This document shows, in pieces, positions 11,414 through 21,656 of a stretch of 64,000 bases of DNA. A program made the translations under genes and the position numbers. This stretch comes from Carboxylicivirga linearis (GTDB lineage Bacteria > Bacteroidota > Bacteroidia > Bacteroidales > Marinilabiliaceae), in contig NZ_JAGUCO010000004.1 of the NCBI RefSeq assembly GCF_018271995.1, positions 248,001 through 312,000 on the forward strand, given 5' to 3'. Positions within the stretch are counted from its first letter, which is position 1. Each line of letters begins with the position of its first letter. The notes under the pieces are model-generated. The model had not been told where the DNA came from. It worked only from the letters and a program-made list of their open reading frames with translations, and made no database searches.

Positions 11414-13660
11414 TTATTTTTTGAAGACCGTATGAACCTGAGTGTCTTTTACTGTAACAATCTTGACCAGATAGGTGCCTGATGGTATTGATCTTACGTC
11501 GATGAAAGACTGGCAATTTTCATTCAACATTACTTGAATTCCCTGCATATTATAAACTTCCACTTTTATAATACTGTTCGTTCCTTCTATGCTGATATAA
11601 TCGATCACAGGATTCGGGTACAATTTAATTCTTTCATCAACCCTTGACTTAACTCCTGTTGTGGTATCATATTCCAGACTCATAAAATAAAGGTTAGCCA
11701 CATCACCTTTTGTAAACTCATAATCGCCTGCTGCAATATCTAAGTTCAATATACCATTGGTTGGATAATACGCGGTACCATTTACTTTAAATTTTCCTTC
11801 AAAACCCTCATTAAAAACCAAGGTAAGTTGACCGTTCTGAGTTGATGTAAATGAGATGGAAGTAGCGGATTCTATTTTCAAGCATTGAGTTAATGTTAAA
11901 CCATTGTACACAACTGTTCCTTTTGAATCAGACAGATTACCGGAAATATTGTAAAAAGAACTATTCAGGCCGGATAAAGTGAAGTTATGTATCATGTCTC
12001 CTTCATCAACCGGGCCGCCATCATCTCCTCCATCACCCGATCCATCATCCTCAGCGTCGCCCTGTATAGAAACCAATGTTGTTTGATATGCAGATAAAGC
12101 ATTTTTTAAAGCCTGATTGACCTCATACGATGCATCATCAACCGAATTATCAAAGGCCCAGATGAAATCACCTCCTTCCATTCTTCCTGCATATTCCATC
12201 ACTGTAGCTTTAGCATCCTCCGGAGTCTCGCTTGTATATTCATACATCACAGCTTCATTGGTGTCAAAATTGTTATAACTATTAGCTCCCTGCACTGTAA
12301 TAACATCTTCCGGAACCAACTCTTCTTTCGACGAAGCAACATATGCATCAAATTGAAGGGTAGAGTTGGTTATTGCTTCATCTCCCCATGCAACAAAGCG
12401 ATTCTGTCCTTCCATATAATTATTAAATGCCTTAATGATTCCTCCATCTTCCCCTGAGAATGTCCCATCCGAATCGTAATAAATATCGGTTCCCTGCTGA
12501 GATATCAACATTGGATATTTACAATTTCGGAAATAGTTGTCTTCAACAAATACCGATGAACCGCTTGTTGCCCCAACGCCGTATTTCGCATTTCCATCGT
12601 AATAATTATTGTAGACATGCGCAGAGAAAAATCGTACCCTCGGATGGCGGGAATCGGAATGATCAAACCAGTTATGATGATAGGTTATGTAAAGCCCTTC
12701 GGTTGTATCTTCACCTAATCCCAATAAACACGATTTGCCGGTATCCCAAAAATGATTATATGAGAAAGTAACATAAGTCGATCTTTTGCAATCCAAAGCT
12801 CCATCACCTTTTGCCTGATCAGAATCGCCTCCGGCGTCGCCATAAAACAAATCGCAATGATGCACCCATATAAAATCATTGTCTTGCTGCAATCCCAAAT
12901 TATCGCCTTCATCGCTATTGCAATTCATAAAAGCCAGATTTCGGATTTCAATGTTGGATGCATTTTTTAATCTGATGCCCCAACCATCTGCCACAGCATC
13001 ATTACCAATACCTTCAATAGTAATGTAACTTGATGGATTATTTTTATTCTCAACCACTATATCTCCCTTATTCATGTAGGAAAAATCAGTAATCTGCCCC
13101 ACCATACGAATTATCAACGGTCGATTATCGTTGCCTTTTTTAAATCCATCTAAAATTTCCTGCAAACCCACACATGGATTCTCATTCGCCCCTGTCACAT
13201 CCATCGAAATGGTGTTCTTCGAGTTTTCAGTGATATAGATAATAACAGCATTATCTTTGGCAGTCCCATCTTCCTTATAAGCTCCGGGAACACGATTATC
13301 AGAAAAAGAAAAGCCTGTTCGATCATGAGCAATAACACTGATCGAATTTGTTTCTGTAGATTCTGTTTCCACTCCATCAATAACCGGCACCACCTTTAAT
13401 GTGTATTCGCCAGCCTGCAAACCCGGGATATCTGCCCGGTAATAATCACCATAATTACGGATTAACTGATCATCTATTTTAAAATTGGTAATACCTTCAC
13501 CACTGCAATAAACATTATAAGCTTCAGCTCCCTCAACAGGTTGCCACTTTACCGTTGCCGTTTCGAACCATCCGACCGACTCGATAATAGTTACAGATTG
13601 AGCAAAAAGCTTAATACTTGAAAGGCTTAGCACTGCCAAGAGGATAAGAATGGATTTCAT
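11414..13660 (-). CDS. Secreted pectate lyase (PL1) with T9SS sorting domain
   Basis: The 748-residue product begins with a signal peptide (cleavage after about Ala20-Gln21). An FN3-like module covers about 22-115. The right-handed beta-helix of a polysaccharide lyase family 1 enzyme runs from about 125 to 430: 'DNDFIWVHHCDLFYG', 'GDGALDCKRSTYVTFSYNHF', then 'SDSRHPRVRFFSAHVYNNYY', which supplies the catalytic Arg, preceded by Asp residues that would bind calcium. A Gly/Asp-rich linker near 545 leads to a beta-sandwich domain, and the last 80 residues have 'YPNPVIDYISIEG', the type A T9SS sorting domain. The enzyme would cleave polygalacturonate by beta-elimination at the cell surface. Its neighbours are two other T9SS proteins. 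Confidence 0.92.
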   Translation of the reverse strand: MKSILILLAVLSLSSIKLFAQSVTIIESVGWFETATVKWQPVEGAEAYNVYCSGEGITNFKIDDQLIRNYGDYYRADIPGLQAGEYTLKVVPVIDGVETESTETNSISVIAHDRTGFSFSDNRVPGAYKEDGTAKDNAVIIYITENSKNTISMDVTGANENPCVGLQEILDGFKKGNDNRPLIIRMVGQITDFSYMNKGDIVVENKNNPSSYITIEGIGNDAVADGWGIRLKNASNIEIRNLAFMNCNSDEGDNLGLQQDNDFIWVHHCDLFYGDAGGDSDQAKGDGALDCKRSTYVTFSYNHFWDTGKSCLLGLGEDTTEGLYITYHHNWFDHSDSRHPRVRFFSAHVYNNYYDGNAKYGVGATSGSSVFVEDNYFRNCKYPMLISQQGTDIYYDSDGTFSGEDGGIIKAFNNYMEGQNRFVAWGDEAITNSTLQFDAYVASSKEELVPEDVITVQGANSYNNFDTNEAVMYEYTSETPEDAKATVMEYAGRMEGGDFIWAFDNSVDDASYEVNQALKNALSAYQTTLVSIQGDAEDDGSGDGGDDGGPVDEGDMIHNFTLSGLNSSFYNISGNLSDSKGTVVYNGLTLTQCLKIESATSISFTSTQNGQLTLVFNEGFEGKFKVNGTAYYPTNGILNLDIAAGDYEFTKGDVANLYFMSLEYDTTTGVKSRVDERIKLYPNPVIDYISIEGTNSIIKVEVYNMQGIQVMLNENCQSFIDVRSIPSGTYLVKIVTVKDTQVHTVFKK

Positions 13661-13817: not shown

Positions 13818-15779
13818 TTACAACTTAATTTTCAGGTAAATTTTATTATTTCCAAAAATCTCAACGATATAAATCCCTTTAACAAACTGGCCTTTAACTA
13901 ACGTATATACATTACCTTCCACCATAGTTTTTAAAACCGGCTGACCGGTTAAACTATACAATGTTAACCAACGAGTATCATTGGGCAGATTCTCAATTCG
14001 GACTATCCCTGATTCGTATATCACCTTTATCTCATCTTTCAGATTTTCATCCAGAGCAGTTGGCTCTGCAATTTCAACCGATCCAGCAACCACCCGTAAC
14101 CTCGGATTTCCTTCGTTCATTAGTATTTCAGAAAAACTTAACGGTATCACCTGGCCTACGTTTAATCCATTTTGTATAAATACCTCCAGACCCAACATAG
14201 TAACGTCTCCATTTACACCACTTACACCGGCTCCGGCAAACTGAAAATGATCCGCTTCTGAAAGTTGAGAATAACTCCACGATTGCGTTGCACTACCAAC
14301 ATTATTCAAGCTTATTTGCTGAATATTAGAGCTATTAAAGCCAATAACACCCGAAATACTGATAACCGGTAACATATTATCATACGAATTTAAGTATACA
14401 GGCATTTGAACCGATTCTCCATCAGCAGGAATAGAAACATTACCCAACTCAATGGTGCCATCATAAATTTCAATAATGCCCGACTGCCCTGTTGAACCGC
14501 GAGGATCTGTTACCAATACTCTAACCTGACCTCCTGCATTGACAGCAAGCAATCCATTTGCATCAATACTTGCTATCGCCGGATTTGAAACACTCCATTG
14601 GTAAGGTTCGATACCTCCACTAACATTAAAATCCAATGTTTCGCCAGCCAGAAGCTGCCCTGTAGAAGGTGTAACCGATAAATTAGGTAAGCTTACAATA
14701 CTAAAATACCCCCTATAAGCTCTCGCCTTTAATGTTTCATTAAACATGGCATGTGTCACTTCAATCCAAGTAGCTCCTGAAGTACGATCATCAACTTTAA
14801 AACGTATATAAAAAAGAGGCCCACTACCTGATAAGGCTTCCGGTGATGCAAAACTAACCGATACAGATTCCAGCTGATTGAGGTTGGCTGATTTAGCTCC
14901 CACAGCTTCGAGTAAACTACCGGCAAAGATTACTTCTTCTGCCATCAGTATATCATCATTGAAACTGATTTTTATTTCACCACTCATCACATCAAAATCA
15001 TCAAGCTGCGAAATATTAACCGGAATGGTTACCCTGTTATTTTGATAGTAACTGGTATCGCGCACAGTTACGGTAAAAGGCACGACTTCCACCCAGTATC
15101 CAGCAGTATCAATAACTCCTGCATCGTCTGTGGCAATCACTTTCACTTTACCTGGCGAAACACCAGTAATTACACCTGTTGAACTGATGGTAGCTACTGT
15201 TAAATCGGTTGTACTCCATGTATAAGGAGCTGTACCTCTCGACACATAATATTGCAAAGTCTCACCTATGGCAATTAATCCGCCGTTGGGACTAAAATTA
15301 AAATAAGGTGCCGGACTGATTGTAATTCGCCCATTGGTTAGGTGAACCGGCACTTCGCCTTCGTTAAAAATGGTTTGTTCATCATTAGCTAAATTGAGAT
15401 AAGCCGTACCATTGGATTTTAAGCGAAACCATAATCGAGTCAATACACCGGTTCCACTTAAAGGGGTTACGCCGGCATGACTAACAGTTACTTTTCCTGC
15501 AGTGTTTATATTGCTTACCGGATCGCCCCACGACGCCGCAATAGTACTTTCGAAAGTAGGCTCCAAAGCTTCGAGTAAATTAACATTATACTCAACCGCT
15601 ATCTGATACGAAAGGATATTCAGCGATGTCAACGAAGTGTCGACATAAACCGGCACACTCACCACATCGCCAACTACTCCTTCTACATTAGCCACTCGCA
15701 GACCAATATCTGCCCTGCCCGGAATTAGTATTACCGACCAGACAAATATGGTTGCTATATAATTTTTAAGCATCTTCAT
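13818..15779 (-). CDS. Secreted protein with three cohesin-like modules, two Ig-like domains and a T9SS tail
   Basis: After a signal peptide (to about residue 24) this 653-residue protein alternates modules. Cohesin-like beta-sandwiches lie at about 28-153, 236-358 and 446-570; each has a 'V.VPVYVD' or 'VTIPVNIS' strand, then 'YQIAVEYNVNLLEA' or 'GEIKISFNDDILMAEE', and a 'SGTGVLTRLWFRLK' or 'SGSGPLFYIRFKV' strand, as in cohesins. BIG2/Ig-like modules sit between them (about 155-235 and 359-445, with 'TISSTGVITGVSPGKVKV'). The last 75 residues look like a T9SS sorting domain. Cohesins bind dockerins, and the next gene encodes a dockerin-like segment. Binding is inferred; cohesin-like folds also occur in proteins without dockerin partners. 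Confidence 0.78.
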   Translation of the reverse strand: MKMLKNYIATIFVWSVILIPGRADIGLRVANVEGVVGDVVSVPVYVDTSLTSLNILSYQIAVEYNVNLLEALEPTFESTIAASWGDPVSNINTAGKVTVSHAGVTPLSGTGVLTRLWFRLKSNGTAYLNLANDEQTIFNEGEVPVHLTNGRITISPAPYFNFSPNGGLIAIGETLQYYVSRGTAPYTWSTTDLTVATISSTGVITGVSPGKVKVIATDDAGVIDTAGYWVEVVPFTVTVRDTSYYQNNRVTIPVNISQLDDFDVMSGEIKISFNDDILMAEEVIFAGSLLEAVGAKSANLNQLESVSVSFASPEALSGSGPLFYIRFKVDDRTSGATWIEVTHAMFNETLKARAYRGYFSIVSLPNLSVTPSTGQLLAGETLDFNVSGGIEPYQWSVSNPAIASIDANGLLAVNAGGQVRVLVTDPRGSTGQSGIIEIYDGTIELGNVSIPADGESVQMPVYLNSYDNMLPVISISGVIGFNSSNIQQISLNNVGSATQSWSYSQLSEADHFQFAGAGVSGVNGDVTMLGLEVFIQNGLNVGQVIPLSFSEILMNEGNPRLRVVAGSVEIAEPTALDENLKDEIKVIYESGIVRIENLPNDTRWLTLYSLTGQPVLKTMVEGNVYTLVKGQFVKGIYIVEIFGNNKIYLKIKL

Positions 15780-15788
15780 GATGGCTAA

Positions 15789-18700
15789 TTATTTAATAAT
15801 AACCTTCTGAGTAAACACCTCATCTTCCACCATTAACCTGATAATAACCACTCCATGATAACTATCCAATTCATCACCACTGAAGTGATAACGACCATTA
15901 TTGAGTGTTCCACTGAACAGGTTAGTAATTAATGTACCATTAGGACTGTAAGCTGAAATTACAACTTCACTATTTTCATCAGCTACATCGTAATCAAATT
16001 CGATGTATCCATTGCTTGGGTTTGGATAAATAGTATGCAACGATGATTCATCGATAACCACCTGTTGCACTACGGTTGCTACCGGATTATCCACCTTAGC
16101 ACCTTTGCTATTCGCACTTGCATATTGCTCATTCGATAGTAACTCTACAAATTCAATGGATGTTTCAGCCTCTGCACCTGAAATAATTTCGAAATGTAAA
16201 TCAGCCCAAACGCCATCATTTGAAATAGCTTCAGCAGATGCAAATGCCAGATCTGCTTCCCCTTTTTCATTATCGATATGATAAGCCATTAGTGCTCCTG
16301 ATTGATCACCACTTACTTCTTTGAGTTGCAGTACTTCTGCATTAAAATGAAGTTTAATATCGGCACTTAACAGATTTGATGTATTACTTACAGAAAGCTG
16401 TGTACTAAACTCGGTACTAATCGGACTAACATCATTCAAACTGAAGTATGCATCATTCGCAGTTTTAGCCACTGTATTTTTCAATACTTCAGCCGGGAAA
16501 GAAGTAATTACTCCTGCAACATATTGCAATACCAATGAAGCATCGTAAGCTGTAATTCCGGCTTCACCAGAAACATCGGCTACTGATTGTTGCAAATCGT
16601 TCAAGGTAATCATTGTAGCTGCATGCTGTAAAATCAGTGAAGCATCATAAGCCTGAATATGCCCGTTTAAACTAACATCTCCCATTAAAGGATTGGTAAA
16701 TCCATCGGTGGTAAAATCGTCGTAGTTGACCATATCAGTAACGGCATCGCCTGTACCACCCGGATTGGATGCATGCGTTGGCCCGGTATTACTTCCCCAA
16801 TAATTATAACGGGCATCAATATCAAAGGCCATATCTACATTTTGCACACCAAAATTGGTATTTCCATAAATATCACAAAAGTTAATTACCGGATTAGAAG
16901 CACCCGTTGCCCTAACTCCATTGGCATTATAAATTAAGCTTGAATTTCTAATGGATGGACTAGCCTTCTCGACTGTTACGGCTGCTTCGGTATTGTAATA
17001 TCCCGCATAGCGTATTAAACAATTTTCTAATCGACACGAATCATCAAATGCCTCATCTGTGAAACGAAGTCCTTTCCAATTGTAATAGTTATTGGCAATA
17101 TTATCCGGTCCGTTGGAATTACTATCCCCTCCAAAGAAATCATCTTTGATATCGGTAAAAACAATAACGCTGTCAGCGGTGGATCCTCCTTCTGCAATCA
17201 AACCTCTTTTAACTGTCATGCGGGCTCCCTGATGAAATTTACAGATCACTCCCGGATCGATAGAAAGGTGCACACTGGTTCCAATTGAGTAATTACCTGA
17301 GAAGTAATAAGGAATATTACGAACTCCTGCAAAATTATTCTTTTTAAGTGTTACATCCTGTACTAGTTCTTCGTTGGCCAATACACCAATAGCCTTATAA
17401 GTTGTACCTGAAATGGTATTATTAACTGTATCGCGTGGGAACGAAACCAAAGAAATTACCATTGGTGCGTACGTTAGATCATTAAATGTGCTATTTGTCA
17501 ATGCAGGTGTGGATACTCCCCGAAGCTCTACTCCCCATGTGCAATTCTCGAATAACGAAGCGTTGATATCAGGTGCTGCCTGCTCCATATTTACACCACT
17601 CCTTGCATATCTGAATATGGTATTATCTACCGAACAGGAATCATCATTGGAAATATCAGCGTAAGTAATAATCGGATAATTCTGGACAGATGGACCATTC
17701 TCAGCTCCATTATCATTGGTATCCATAGGCCGACCATAAGCATCATCGCGCAGATTGGTAAATACCACCGGATTCCCTGATTCACCATTCACCTGCAATG
17801 CTCCATTAACTGTAAAGGCCGAATGATTATAGGTTTTAAATATGGTTCCGGCAGGTACCACAATGTTGGTTCCGGAATTGACTGTTAAAGTATTGTAGAT
17901 GTAATAGGTGATGTTATCATATCCGGCAAAATCTCTTTGAGGAATGGTATCATCCAACGAATAAGTTTCTTGCGCAACACCCAAAGCCACAATACCCAAA
18001 TTAGATACGCCATTATTTTCAAAGGTTGGCTCAGCAAACATACTTAGAATTACAGGAGCCTCTCCTAAATTATTAAACTGCGAATTAGTTACCACTGCGT
18101 TGGAGCTTCCGAAAATACCAATACCTCCATAGTTACAGTGCTCGAGCTGACAACTATCCACCTCAACATAGGCATCAAAAATATCAACCAGACTCCTGTT
18201 TTTTCCTTGACTATAATAAGTATAACCTCCATAATTGAGTATACAATTATTCAACAGGTTATCTTCTTCCAATGCTGAGGCATTAAATATAATTCTACTC
18301 CAGTTATTTCGTTGCGGAACAGAGACATTACCATCATCGTTGGTATCGCCTCCTTTTGAATCATCTTTAATAGAGGTAAAAACTATTTTCTCCTCTTCAG
18401 CACCATTGGCATTTAATGCTCCATTAACAGTTATGCCACTATTGTAGTTTCTGAATTTAATAACAACACCTGGTGATATATTGAGTATGGCATTATTGCC
18501 AATTGTTAAACGATCAATGATATAGGCAATATTATAAATGCCACCTACATCGCGTTTTACCAGATTGGCTGAATTGGCCAGATTACCTTCTAAAATAAAG
18601 ATACCATTACTACCATTACCATTTGATGCAATATCGGGTGATGTAAACGACATTAGTGGATTAGACATTAGCGACATGGCCAATGGATCGAGTCGACAGT

Positions 18701-21656
18701 TTTGAATAAACACTTCTTCAGAACAATCCGGATCTGAAGTTCCGTCAAAACGAAGGCCATAGTAATATGAATCACTAACAGTAGAATTAGAAATCTGTCC
18801 TCCGGCATCCACCCAGGTTACAACCCCATAATTACTATTACCACCAAACAATAATCGGGTGAAATCGATGGCATTGAAATCATCATTGGCAGTACCTGTA
18901 TAACGAATGGTTGTCCAGTTACCCGCAGACGGTGCTTCTGCATCTCCATCGTTTTTGGTATCCTGAGGAACTCCATAATTATCATCCCTAATGGAAGTAA
19001 AAATAATGGAATCAGTTTCGAGGCCGGCAGCTTTAAATCCTCCGTTAACCGTTATACTTTTGCTTTGATTAAACTTAAGAACTACTCCCGGTTTAACCTC
19101 AACATCGGAACCCGAATTAATGGTCAGATTATCAAGCAGTACATACGAAATATTATCATATCCAGCTATAGTATCCTTATCGAGTGTAGCATTAAATCCA
19201 ACACTTTCGCCAATAATACCAATGGCTGTCCAACCCGGATTAGTAAAGCTGTTGCCAGTAAACTGAGGCATGGCATTGATAGATTTGGCCACAGGTGTAT
19301 AAGTGGTGTTTACCAACTCATTATTCTCAACTACCGGATGAGATGCCTGAAATGCATAGATACCGTAGTGGCAATCTTTAAGAATACTATTGCTTATTTG
19401 TGGACTGGCATTTTCAAGTGTTATCTGCCCTCCACTAATGTATTGTGTATTATAATATCTGCCCGGCATAGCTCCATACTGAAGACGAGTATAGTTTAAA
19501 ACACAATTTTCATCATCTACTGTATTTTCAAAAACAATACCTCCCCAATTGGCAATGGCCGGCACTGTTTGGGTTCCGTCTTTATTCGTATCCTGAGGAT
19601 TACCAAAATTATCATCCCTTACAGAAGTGAAGGTAATGATATTGTTTTCATCTCCTCCGTCTGCCACCAAAGCACCTTTTACAATTATAAGATGCGATTG
19701 ACTATATCCTTTGATTACAACACCCGGATTAATAGTTAGAGTAATGCCTTCAGGAATGGTAACCGAACCTAATAACAGGTAAGTTACATTTGGTATACCT
19801 GTTACATCACGCTGAGGCAGGTTAGCACTGGCAGTCATAGTACTGCTAATAATACCAATGGCATCGTAGGTATTATCAGAAAATGAAAAGCTATTATCGG
19901 TAAAAGTTGGTGTAGCGTCTAATGTTAGTGCAAAAGGCACTAATGATGATGAACCAATGGTATTAAACCGGAAACTAGGGCTTGAATTAAACTCAATGTA
20001 AGCACCAATGTAGTTGTTCTCGAAATTACAGTTTTCAATACTTGGCGAAGCATTCTGAATCCAAACCGGAGCCCTGTTGCTACGTCCACCAAACGAAAAA
20101 TCGGCATAGCTGATGCTACACTCTGCATCTACACTGCTATCTTCAAAACGGATAGATCCCCAGTTACCTGCGGCTGGAGGTGTGGCGGCACCATCGTTAT
20201 TAGTATCGCCTCCCAGGTTATCGTTCTGATAAGAGGTAAAATAGATCATATCTGTGTCTGAACCATCAGCTATTAAGGCACCTCTTACATATATACTACT
20301 GTTATTGAATTTAATTGTATTACCGGCACGAATGGTTAATGCAGCTGCTGCCTGAACATAAAAGGCCCTGGTAAATACATAGGGTACAGCCACTGTATCC
20401 AATGTCATATCACCATTCAGGTAACTAAAATCCACATAAACACCATTAAAGGTGTTATCCGATATATCAACATTATTATGCGCAAAAGTCAGATTGGCTG
20501 CACTTCCATATAAAATTGGCCAGCGACAATCCGATATTTGAGCGCTTTCAATATGAGTATCCCCTCCATTAACAACTCTTAGTCCCACATTATTTGACTG
20601 GTGAACAACACAATTGTCGGCAAGACTTAAGGTACCTCCATTATTATATAAACAGCTATAATTGGCATTAAAAGAGGAACTATAACCACCATACTCTATA
20701 GTAGTTGCATTAAAAGTTGCAACACCACCTGGCGATATATTTATGGCTTCCCAATTTCCGGCTGCTCCAACAGTAGTAGTTCCATCGTTATTGGTATCTC
20801 CTCCCAAAACATCATTCTGATATGATGTTACATAAACTCTATCGGTGACAGATCCATAGGTTAATAACGATCCGCTTACATTAACACTATTAGTACTGTT
20901 AACCTTTACCGTATTGCCTGCTCGTATTGCTAAGGTAGCACCGGCCTGTATCGTAAATTCATTTAACAGAACATACGGAACCGAAATAGTATCAAGTTCC
21001 ATATCACTATTGAGAGAGGTGAAATCTAAAAAGATTCCATTTAAGGTATTACCTAAAATATCAATTCCGTCTGTATTAAAAGTTAAATCCGAAGCACTGC
21101 TATAAACAACCGGCCATCGACAAGCCGTAATTTGAAGACTTTCAGCCTGAACTGTTCCTCCATCTAAAAGTCGCAAACCAGTATTATTAGCATCTTTAAT
21201 AATACAATTATCAGCCAAAGTAATTGCTCCTCCACTACTACTAAGACATGCATAGCTAATATTATAAGACGAACTATAACCACCATACTCAAAAGTGGTT
21301 GCATTAAACTCTGCAGTACCGCCGGAGCGAACATTAATTTCGTTCCAATCTCCTTTTTGGCGTGATAGAGGATCTACCTCAGAGGAAGTAAAAAGCACCC
21401 GGTTTACAGTGGTACCATTTACAATTAAATCGCCATCAACAATAATACTTGTATTATCATTGATTCGTACTTCAACTCCTTCATCAATCGTTAAAACACC
21501 TGATGTAGAGATTTGCAGGTTAGAAGTAACCACATAAGGTGAGCCATCAACCGTCCAGGTTGAATCAGTTGTTATAAAGCCTGATACATTGGTTTGTGAA
21601 CTTACAAGCCAACTAAAACAAGCCAATATAAAAACCAGAGTAAATGATTTTTTCAT
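15789..21656 (-). CDS. Giant secreted beta-helix protein with dockerin-like pair, cohesin-like module and T9SS tail
   Basis: I use the ATG at 21656, which puts a signal peptide at the N-terminus; a GTG 21 bases upstream is in frame. The 1955-residue product has eight imperfect modules of about 150-230 residues (about 25-1640). Each has a strand such as 'LTINPGVVIKG', then 'ITFTSVRDDN', a DTNxDG calcium-type loop in modules 2-8, a 'NWGGI' strand and a string of parallel beta-helix turns. At about 1656-1722 two EF-hand-like segments follow, 'GDVSLNGHIQAYDASLILQ' and 'ADVSGEAGITAYDASLVLQ', which fit the dockerin type I pattern. A cohesin-like sandwich (about 1732-1850) and a T9SS domain with 'YPNPSNGYIEF' end the protein. 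No lyase active site was recognised, so the helix may bind glycan or act as a spacer. Confidence 0.82.
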   Translation of the reverse strand: MKKSFTLVFILACFSWLVSSQTNVSGFITTDSTWTVDGSPYVVTSNLQISTSGVLTIDEGVEVRINDNTSIIVDGDLIVNGTTVNRVLFTSSEVDPLSRQKGDWNEINVRSGGTAEFNATTFEYGGYSSSYNISYACLSSSGGAITLADNCIIKDANNTGLRLLDGGTVQAESLQITACRWPVVYSSASDLTFNTDGIDILGNTLNGIFLDFTSLNSDMELDTISVPYVLLNEFTIQAGATLAIRAGNTVKVNSTNSVNVSGSLLTYGSVTDRVYVTSYQNDVLGGDTNNDGTTTVGAAGNWEAINISPGGVATFNATTIEYGGYSSSFNANYSCLYNNGGTLSLADNCVVHQSNNVGLRVVNGGDTHIESAQISDCRWPILYGSAANLTFAHNNVDISDNTFNGVYVDFSYLNGDMTLDTVAVPYVFTRAFYVQAAAALTIRAGNTIKFNNSSIYVRGALIADGSDTDMIYFTSYQNDNLGGDTNNDGAATPPAAGNWGSIRFEDSSVDAECSISYADFSFGGRSNRAPVWIQNASPSIENCNFENNYIGAYIEFNSSPSFRFNTIGSSSLVPFALTLDATPTFTDNSFSFSDNTYDAIGIISSTMTASANLPQRDVTGIPNVTYLLLGSVTIPEGITLTINPGVVIKGYSQSHLIIVKGALVADGGDENNIITFTSVRDDNFGNPQDTNKDGTQTVPAIANWGGIVFENTVDDENCVLNYTRLQYGAMPGRYYNTQYISGGQITLENASPQISNSILKDCHYGIYAFQASHPVVENNELVNTTYTPVAKSINAMPQFTGNSFTNPGWTAIGIIGESVGFNATLDKDTIAGYDNISYVLLDNLTINSGSDVEVKPGVVLKFNQSKSITVNGGFKAAGLETDSIIFTSIRDDNYGVPQDTKNDGDAEAPSAGNWTTIRYTGTANDDFNAIDFTRLLFGGNSNYGVVTWVDAGGQISNSTVSDSYYYGLRFDGTSDPDCSEEVFIQNCRLDPLAMSLMSNPLMSFTSPDIASNGNGSNGIFILEGNLANSANLVKRDVGGIYNIAYIIDRLTIGNNAILNISPGVVIKFRNYNSGITVNGALNANGAEEEKIVFTSIKDDSKGGDTNDDGNVSVPQRNNWSRIIFNASALEEDNLLNNCILNYGGYTYYSQGKNRSLVDIFDAYVEVDSCQLEHCNYGGIGIFGSSNAVVTNSQFNNLGEAPVILSMFAEPTFENNGVSNLGIVALGVAQETYSLDDTIPQRDFAGYDNITYYIYNTLTVNSGTNIVVPAGTIFKTYNHSAFTVNGALQVNGESGNPVVFTNLRDDAYGRPMDTNDNGAENGPSVQNYPIITYADISNDDSCSVDNTIFRYARSGVNMEQAAPDINASLFENCTWGVELRGVSTPALTNSTFNDLTYAPMVISLVSFPRDTVNNTISGTTYKAIGVLANEELVQDVTLKKNNFAGVRNIPYYFSGNYSIGTSVHLSIDPGVICKFHQGARMTVKRGLIAEGGSTADSVIVFTDIKDDFFGGDSNSNGPDNIANNYYNWKGLRFTDEAFDDSCRLENCLIRYAGYYNTEAAVTVEKASPSIRNSSLIYNANGVRATGASNPVINFCDIYGNTNFGVQNVDMAFDIDARYNYWGSNTGPTHASNPGGTGDAVTDMVNYDDFTTDGFTNPLMGDVSLNGHIQAYDASLILQHAATMITLNDLQQSVADVSGEAGITAYDASLVLQYVAGVITSFPAEVLKNTVAKTANDAYFSLNDVSPISTEFSTQLSVSNTSNLLSADIKLHFNAEVLQLKEVSGDQSGALMAYHIDNEKGEADLAFASAEAISNDGVWADLHFEIISGAEAETSIEFVELLSNEQYASANSKGAKVDNPVATVVQQVVIDESSLHTIYPNPSNGYIEFDYDVADENSEVVISAYSPNGTLITNLFSGTLNNGRYHFSGDELDSYHGVVIIRLMVEDEVFTQKVIIK

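Follow-up and report, generated by a model that had tools for sequence, protein, structure and literature searches.

The question raised by this locus is whether cohesin and dockerin modules, when they lie on neighbouring proteins with type IX secretion (T9SS) tails and next to a pectate lyase, make up a scaffold for enzymes or a surface structure of another kind. We have analysed a stretch of 64,000 nucleotides of Carboxylicivirga linearis (the window), in which a large gene (A) is followed on the minus strand, after 9 bp, by a smaller one (B) and, 157 bp further on, by the lyase gene (Table 1). A sequence-only reading had noticed cohesin and dockerin modules on T9SS-tailed neighbours, an observation that our analysis confirmed as real. 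The coordinates, the strand, the 1955-residue length of A and the pair of loops that carry Asp at their positions 1 and 12 were all correct in it; the adjacency of the genes also stood, but not the wording of their order, as A is the upstream gene in transcription and B therefore follows it. The ATG at 21656 gives A its 1955 residues, and an upstream GTG would give 1962.

Table 1. Features of the locus, with positions counted from the first letter of the window
Feature	Positions	Strand	Description
Gene A	15789-21656	minus	1955 aa; in order, an N-terminal export signal (by eye), a right-handed beta-helix, a dockerin, a cohesin and a T9SS type A tail
Beta-helix region of A	16707-21593	minus	~residues 22-1650; PF13229 in five stretches, E 1.8e-24
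Dockerin of A	16485-16688	minus	residues 1657-1724, two loop-helix repeats
Cohesin of A	16089-16448	minus	~residues 1737-1856; Pfam segment and local scores, AlphaFold2, Foldseek
T9SS type A sorting domain of A	15792-16031	minus	TIGR04183, 25.3 bits (cut-off 23)
Gene B	13818-15779	minus	653 aa; cohesin-Big_2-cohesin-Big_2-cohesin, ending in a T9SS tail
Cohesin 1 of B	15312-15707	minus	residues 25-156; Pfam, AlphaFold2
Cohesin 2 of B	14697-15077	minus	residues 235-361; Pfam genome match, AlphaFold2
Cohesin 3 of B	14064-14462	minus	residues 440-572, divergent; clade profile and AlphaFold2
T9SS type A sorting domain of B	13821-14030	minus	TIGR04183, 26.6 bits (cut-off 23)
Pectate lyase neighbour	11414-13660	minus	Pectate_lyase_4, CBM77, T9SS tail; judged outside the A/B pair

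By Pfam, the clade profile and AlphaFold2, B is a protein of the scaffoldin type with several cohesins. It gave 67.7 bits against PF00963 (cut-off 24.1) over two stretches; the third cohesin of the window protein, not matched by Pfam, gave 45 bits with the clade profile (which includes window sequences) and was modelled by AlphaFold2 at pLDDT 92-97. The B homologue of locus L120 has three cohesin stretches by Pfam. The model of B had a mean pLDDT of 91.0, all three cohesins included, and its pTM of 0.63 over 653 residues is a hint, and no more than that, of domains lined up rather stiffly. Foldseek matched it to the cohesin 6kgf_C (TMt 0.76), with long Ig-stack proteins ranking above, and the clade cohesin profile searched against the PDB had 2xdh_A as its best match (E 1.8e-12), with CaCohA2 (6kgc_A, 2.5e-11) also found. 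Pfam detected no CBM family in B, and PF18962 was not among its matches. Cohesin and Big_2 were both present in 70/70 relatives of B (Pfam, E up to 0.01). The C-terminal part differs in the three homologues scanned whole, being Laminin_G_3 (lectin-like) in L120, PKD in L136 and fn3 in L158; a varying C-terminus of B, together with a constant three-cohesin head and a constant A, is what would be expected if A were the rod shared by all and B a holder particular to each lineage. At some loci (L136, L153, L155, L159, L160 and L163) a gene of ~1900 aa lies directly after B on the same strand, the L159 copy containing CARDB and CarboxypepD_reg.

The beta-helix of A, recognised by PF13229 in 24/24 homologues scanned, contains seven Dx[NK]x[DN]G loops (DTNNDG-like) spaced ~205 residues apart, and its sequence had no match among PDB sequences up to E 0.1. 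The cohesin of A reached 32.8 bits with PF00963 as a local genome match and 32.3 bits on a C-terminal segment of 308 aa, both above the cut-off, and was absent from the matches when the whole 1955-aa protein was scanned (E up to 1). AlphaFold2 modelled the dockerin, cohesin and tail of A at a mean pLDDT of 89.5 (pTM 0.65), with a helix after each dockerin loop, and Foldseek matched this model to the cohesins 5nrk_A (TMt 0.73) and 2xdh (0.74). In an alignment of 77 A-tail relatives, Pfam (E up to 0.01) recognised Dockerin_1 in 74, Cohesin in 60 and Por_Secre_tail in 75; for 24 full-length A proteins the figures were 20 for Dockerin_1 and 14 for Cohesin. One A homologue (L129:762-8855) has an extra M6 peptidase domain at its N-terminus.

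On the dockerin proposed for A, PF00404 (cut-off 22.9) gave a divided answer: the whole protein stayed below at 20.9 bits, but the 308-aa segment (25.5) and the local match (28.5) were above. Both loops, residues 1660-1671 (DVSLNGHIQAYD) and 1694-1705 (DVSGEAGITAYD), have Asp at 1 and 12, and in the PDB the clade dockerin profile matched 8x39_A (named as a serine protease, E 5.6e-10) and the scaffoldin ScaB (4uyq_B, 5.7e-10). In 77 relatives, with rows partly selected by pattern, D1, S3 and D12 of loop 1 were each kept in 77/77, and those of loop 2 in 72/77, 75/77 and 77/77, respectively. The scan patterns spanned positions 9-17/18, so that conservation there is biased, and as a check each repeat was judged only in rows whose other repeat had matched the pattern. 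In these rows repeat 1 kept D1, S3 and D12 in 51/51 each, with Y/F at position 11 in 51/51 and Q (28/51) or K (18/51) at position 18; repeat 2 kept D1 and S3 in 53/55 each and D12 in 55/55, with Y/F at position 11 in 49/55 and Q at position 18 in 50/55. In clostridial dockerins, positions 10/11 and 17/18 serve as specificity positions. Position 5 of loop 2 varies and offers no constant ligand, which makes two-site calcium binding by this dockerin uncertain. The dockerin is the best-kept part of A, with a mean identity of 0.59 (a value raised by the pattern choice) against 0.25-0.49 for the other parts. A second dockerin subtype (NATDALLV... SFPSGDW... GDVNGSY), with an apparent insertion after repeat 2, was seen at L046, L058, L060, L065 and L070, where its genes lie upstream of one that encodes between one and four cohesins, in a parallel form of the pairing.

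The T9SS tails proposed for A, B and the lyase (the latter 37.2 bits) all exceeded the TIGR04183 cut-off, PF18962 giving A 19, under its own cut-off of 27. The genome also encodes the T9SS machinery, as judged from SprA_N at 596 bits (SprA alone was searched). A and B are predicted to be secreted by the type IX system via these C-terminal sorting domains.

The sequence-only reading had set a possible T9SS-secreted surface scaffold beside the pectate lyase. A cellulosome-like arrangement with the lyase as client has in its favour that the multi-cohesin B adjoins a pectate lyase with CBM77, and that another genome of the Bacteroidota (G546) has a PL14 lyase that bears a related dockerin. However, Pfam found no dockerin in the pectate lyase, and Pfam and the clade profile found no second two-repeat dockerin in the genome; several dockerin-bearing enzymes are a trait of cellulosomes, and here the one two-repeat dockerin sits on A. 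Besides, a lyase homologue was found to adjoin A/B only in the window and its closest relative (L086), in a comparison where 51/80 loci, the next closest (L087) not among them, hold at least 2500 bases past the first cohesin ORF after A. On the missing dockerin and this limited adjacency we reject the lyase as client; an enzyme scaffold linked to it is not supported and seems to us very improbable for this genome. G546 itself gave seven dockerin-profile matches, including the PL14 polysaccharide lyase and PA14 and PKD proteins, and it also has a cohesin-dockerin-T9SS protein; five of the seven were inspected, and the loci concerned include L230:331-2085, L224:4701-6365, L236:993-2288 and L234:1286-2662. 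It is a candidate enzyme-recruiting system.

Within the C. linearis genome, the clade dockerin profile found one site (E 6e-38, the next at 0.34) and the clade cohesin profile four, all in A and B (both profiles include window sequences); in these searches no candidate cohesin partner for the dockerin turned up elsewhere in the genome. A cohesin-like match on contig C104 was rejected (20.9 bits, under the cut-off, with no counterpart among the clade-profile matches at E up to 1), as were nine further Pfam dockerin matches of 17-29 residues each inside open frames of 987-1191 aa. Eight of these nine have one DxNxDG-type loop each, and the loop of the ninth (L016) is imperfect; the match on C137 reaches the Pfam cut-off, at 23 bits, together with its neighbours. 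By eye the host frames look like outer-membrane TonB-type receptors, and none of the nine was recovered by the clade profile, whose weak extras (E 0.34, 0.41) lie elsewhere. Across the order a single dockerin (E up to 1e-4) was found in 44 of the 81 dockerin-bearing genomes, and at least ten in 13 (G003, G048, G052, G075, G094, G095, G107, G116, G119, G179, G196, G215 and G271). In G003 the dockerin stands at the very C-terminus in 4/5 proteins scanned (a C10 peptidase, Omp28, LRR and a repeat protein), and in a G271 protein near the N-terminus, before Fib_succ_major domains; L181:4362-7493 and L182:2794-4074 are example loci of such dockerin-rich genomes.

Cohesin-like sandwiches are common in surface proteins, and loop 2 of the dockerin is degenerate. 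It might be argued from this that both folds are relics, reused as structural modules of two large adhesins that make no contact of the plug-and-socket type. Yet no other part of A is as well conserved as the dockerin, positions 1, 3 and 12 of its loops are kept in the bias-checked rows, and the cohesins and dockerin of the genome are confined to one locus. We regard non-binding relics as distinctly unlikely.

How general the pair is was examined by a profile search of genome contigs with the alignment of the dockerin, cohesin and tail of A, of which the best 80 of 227 relatives were kept (72 assemblies, eight of them giving two loci each). A B-type gene was next downstream on the same strand in 80/80 of these loci, a figure to be read knowing that the ten query rows came from loci already showing the pair and that 5/80 contigs have the same length as contigs behind these rows. 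Among these best 80 of 227, the next cohesin ORF had at least three cohesins at 72 loci; at 4 loci it had one or two, the locus ending within 1.5 kb, and at 3 a one-cohesin ORF came first, followed by an ORF with two or three. At L149 the frame of A is broken and B is intact. The record titles of the 80 name Bacteroidales, Marinilabiliaceae, Paludibacter, Prolixibacteraceae, Melioribacteraceae, Ignavibacteriales, Chlorobiaceae, Cloacimonadota, Zixibacteriota, Kryptoniota, Neomarinimicrobiota and Calditrichota; as most of these records are MAGs, single placements could be binning errors. Two culturable relatives, Geofilum rubicundum (L157) and Plebeiobacterium marinum (L159), also have the pair. 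The flanks are far less constant: the commonest flanking family occurred in 13 loci (position varies), that of a third gene, directly after B, in 6 and the lyase in 2, with 51/80 loci holding at least 2500 bases past the first cohesin ORF after A.

Two less selected samples were also used, 295 genomes of the order and 395 of the phylum, the dockerin profile holding some of the same genomes. In the order sample, 16 of the 17 strongest dockerin-profile matches (E up to 1e-20) were A-B pairs, although in G067 and G197 the frame of B is split, in G282 the contig ends within it and in G219 only two of its cohesins were detected; the exception (G016) has a cohesin before the dockerin and no B. The phylum sample gave 44 matches (E up to 1e-18), and of the 42 examined 27 were A-B pairs, two of them (L217, L218) with B present and no cohesin detected in A. 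The remaining 15 were cohesin-dockerin(-cohesin) proteins, dockerin-only proteins, of which G546 has four and G594 one, and an A (L226) without B in the piece examined; two of these 15 adjoin a one-cohesin gene. The cohesin-dockerin-cohesin proteins at L223:4432-6663, L233:440-2671, L237:4494-6641 and L222:5361-8495, with no B beside them in the piece examined, are possible chain-forming homologues; a T9SS tail was found in the L223 protein and in an L222 neighbour, the two that were scanned.

Judged from these sequence comparisons, the A-B pair is ancient, and its conserved pairing argues that A and B work together. The same pair in so many distantly related bacteria looks like an ancient, self-contained surface assembly that clips together, and not like a cellulose-degrading complex. 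In the 73 of 81 loci that were usable, the best match of a cohesin in another locus was the cohesin of the same position in 73/73 cases for A, 71/73 for B1, 73/73 for B2 and 71/73 for B3, and the four positions are thus distinct old types. Compared with L086, dN/dS was 0.062 for A and 0.124 for B, with dS nearly saturated (1.85 and 1.73).

We consider it probable that A and B form one exported surface assembly, in which the dockerin of A enters the cohesins of B in trans and in a calcium-dependent way. From the modules and their arrangement we infer this binding, its direction and its need for calcium, as well as a stoichiometry of up to three large beta-helix rods per B, which would present its three cohesins at a fixed spacing. 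The cohesin of A may accept the dockerin of another A and so extend the structure, and the rods might serve for adhesion, as a coat or for polysaccharide capture. Among the points against this trans pairing, dockerins akin to that of A are also found where there is no B gene (15/42 phylum matches), two of the 27 pairs (L217, L218) have no detected cohesin in A, and the dockerin gives no sign of special coevolution with B. Over 59 loci, the dockerin distances correlated with those of the A helix at r 0.69-0.74 and with those of the B cohesins at 0.63-0.70, that is, the dockerin tracks the A helix as well or better. The distances of the A cohesin correlated with B1-B3 at r 0.76-0.80 against 0.64 for the A helix and 0.57 for the A tail (59 loci), a difference that shared ancestry of the cohesins may inflate. 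We give these correlations no more than suggestive weight, and some of them run counter to binding in trans.

The dockerin distances would suit a clasp in cis, in which the dockerin of A binds the adjacent cohesin of the same protein, stabilising or capping the end of A, and the B cohesins are spacers with a related but separate job. Such a clasp is possible because the two modules are only ~24 residues apart in A; across A loci the dockerin stands directly before the cohesin with a linker of median 24 residues (range 17-63), and the pTM of the model of this part is compatible with packing between them or with none. However, mean identity is lower for the A cohesin (0.25) than for B3 (0.27) or for B1 and B2 (0.36 each), whereas the reverse would be expected if the A cohesin were the dedicated partner of the dockerin, the module that is conserved best. 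L217 and L218 keep the dockerin and B though no A cohesin was detected, and the clasp leaves the adjacency of B at every one of the best 80 of 227 loci unexplained. We hold it to be unlikely. Starting again from the trans pairing, one can go further and imagine an ancient, closed two-gene plug-and-socket system of T9SS bacteria, with calcium-switched rods that polymerise by dockerin-cohesin contacts and cluster in threes on a rigid B with its three sockets, giving a surface lattice or fibre unrelated to cellulose breakdown; the enzyme-recruiting dockerin systems of the lineage would then have derived later or share an ancestor with it. This larger picture is tentative and, taken as a whole, unlikely.

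The locus matters beyond this species, as both families occur together in 54/295 genomes of the order (Fisher p 6e-21, kinship uncorrected) and a single gene pair has been kept across records whose titles point to several phyla. As the searches found just one two-repeat dockerin, and four cohesins, in this genome, the role of non-cellulosomal cohesins becomes directly testable here.

In the part of the open literature covered by our searches, we found no description of a closed, widely conserved A-B pair. The type I clostridial cellulosome shares with it the cohesin and dockerin families (PDB matches 8x39_A, 4uyq_B and 6kgc_A), but here no dockerin-bearing enzymes and no CBM in B were found, Big_2 domains lie between the cohesins and export is by T9SS. 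The pair of Archaeoglobus fulgidus, in which the cohesin and dockerin genes presumably adjoin, gave the best PDB cohesin match (2xdh_A) and is likewise non-cellulosomal, but archaeal and without T9SS. Archaeal versions of the two modules have been verified to bind, and the available portion of the same source describes ANME proteins that combine a dockerin with as many as five cohesins, of function not clear and with variable other domains (PMC9012536); these are again archaeal, and that portion describes no fixed gene pair. Two elements of our system have already been proposed in print, as far as the accessible parts of the papers go: a T9SS-anchored cohesin scaffold in Ca. Stygibacter (PMC8542988) and an adaptor with dockerin plus cohesin in the planctosome (PMC6461901). 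The general idea of such a scaffold as a new design, put forward in the sequence-only reading, is thus partly pre-empted. The Ca. Stygibacter protein (Cloacimonadota) is, in those parts, a tandem-cohesin surface scaffold of 3755 aa with a T9SS-type C-terminal domain, as in B, but with CBMs and with dockerins on enzymes (GH18, GH57, S8 and C25) (PMC8542988), whereas the one two-repeat dockerin found here is on a beta-helix protein. The planctosome of the Nemodlikiaceae (Planctomycetes), also non-cellulosic and with dockerin and cohesin in one chain, has in the corresponding text a lamin-tail anchor with one cohesin and proposed peptidase clients (PMC6461901); in our case no enzyme client was found, and the partners are a three-cohesin B and a beta-helix A, both with T9SS tails.
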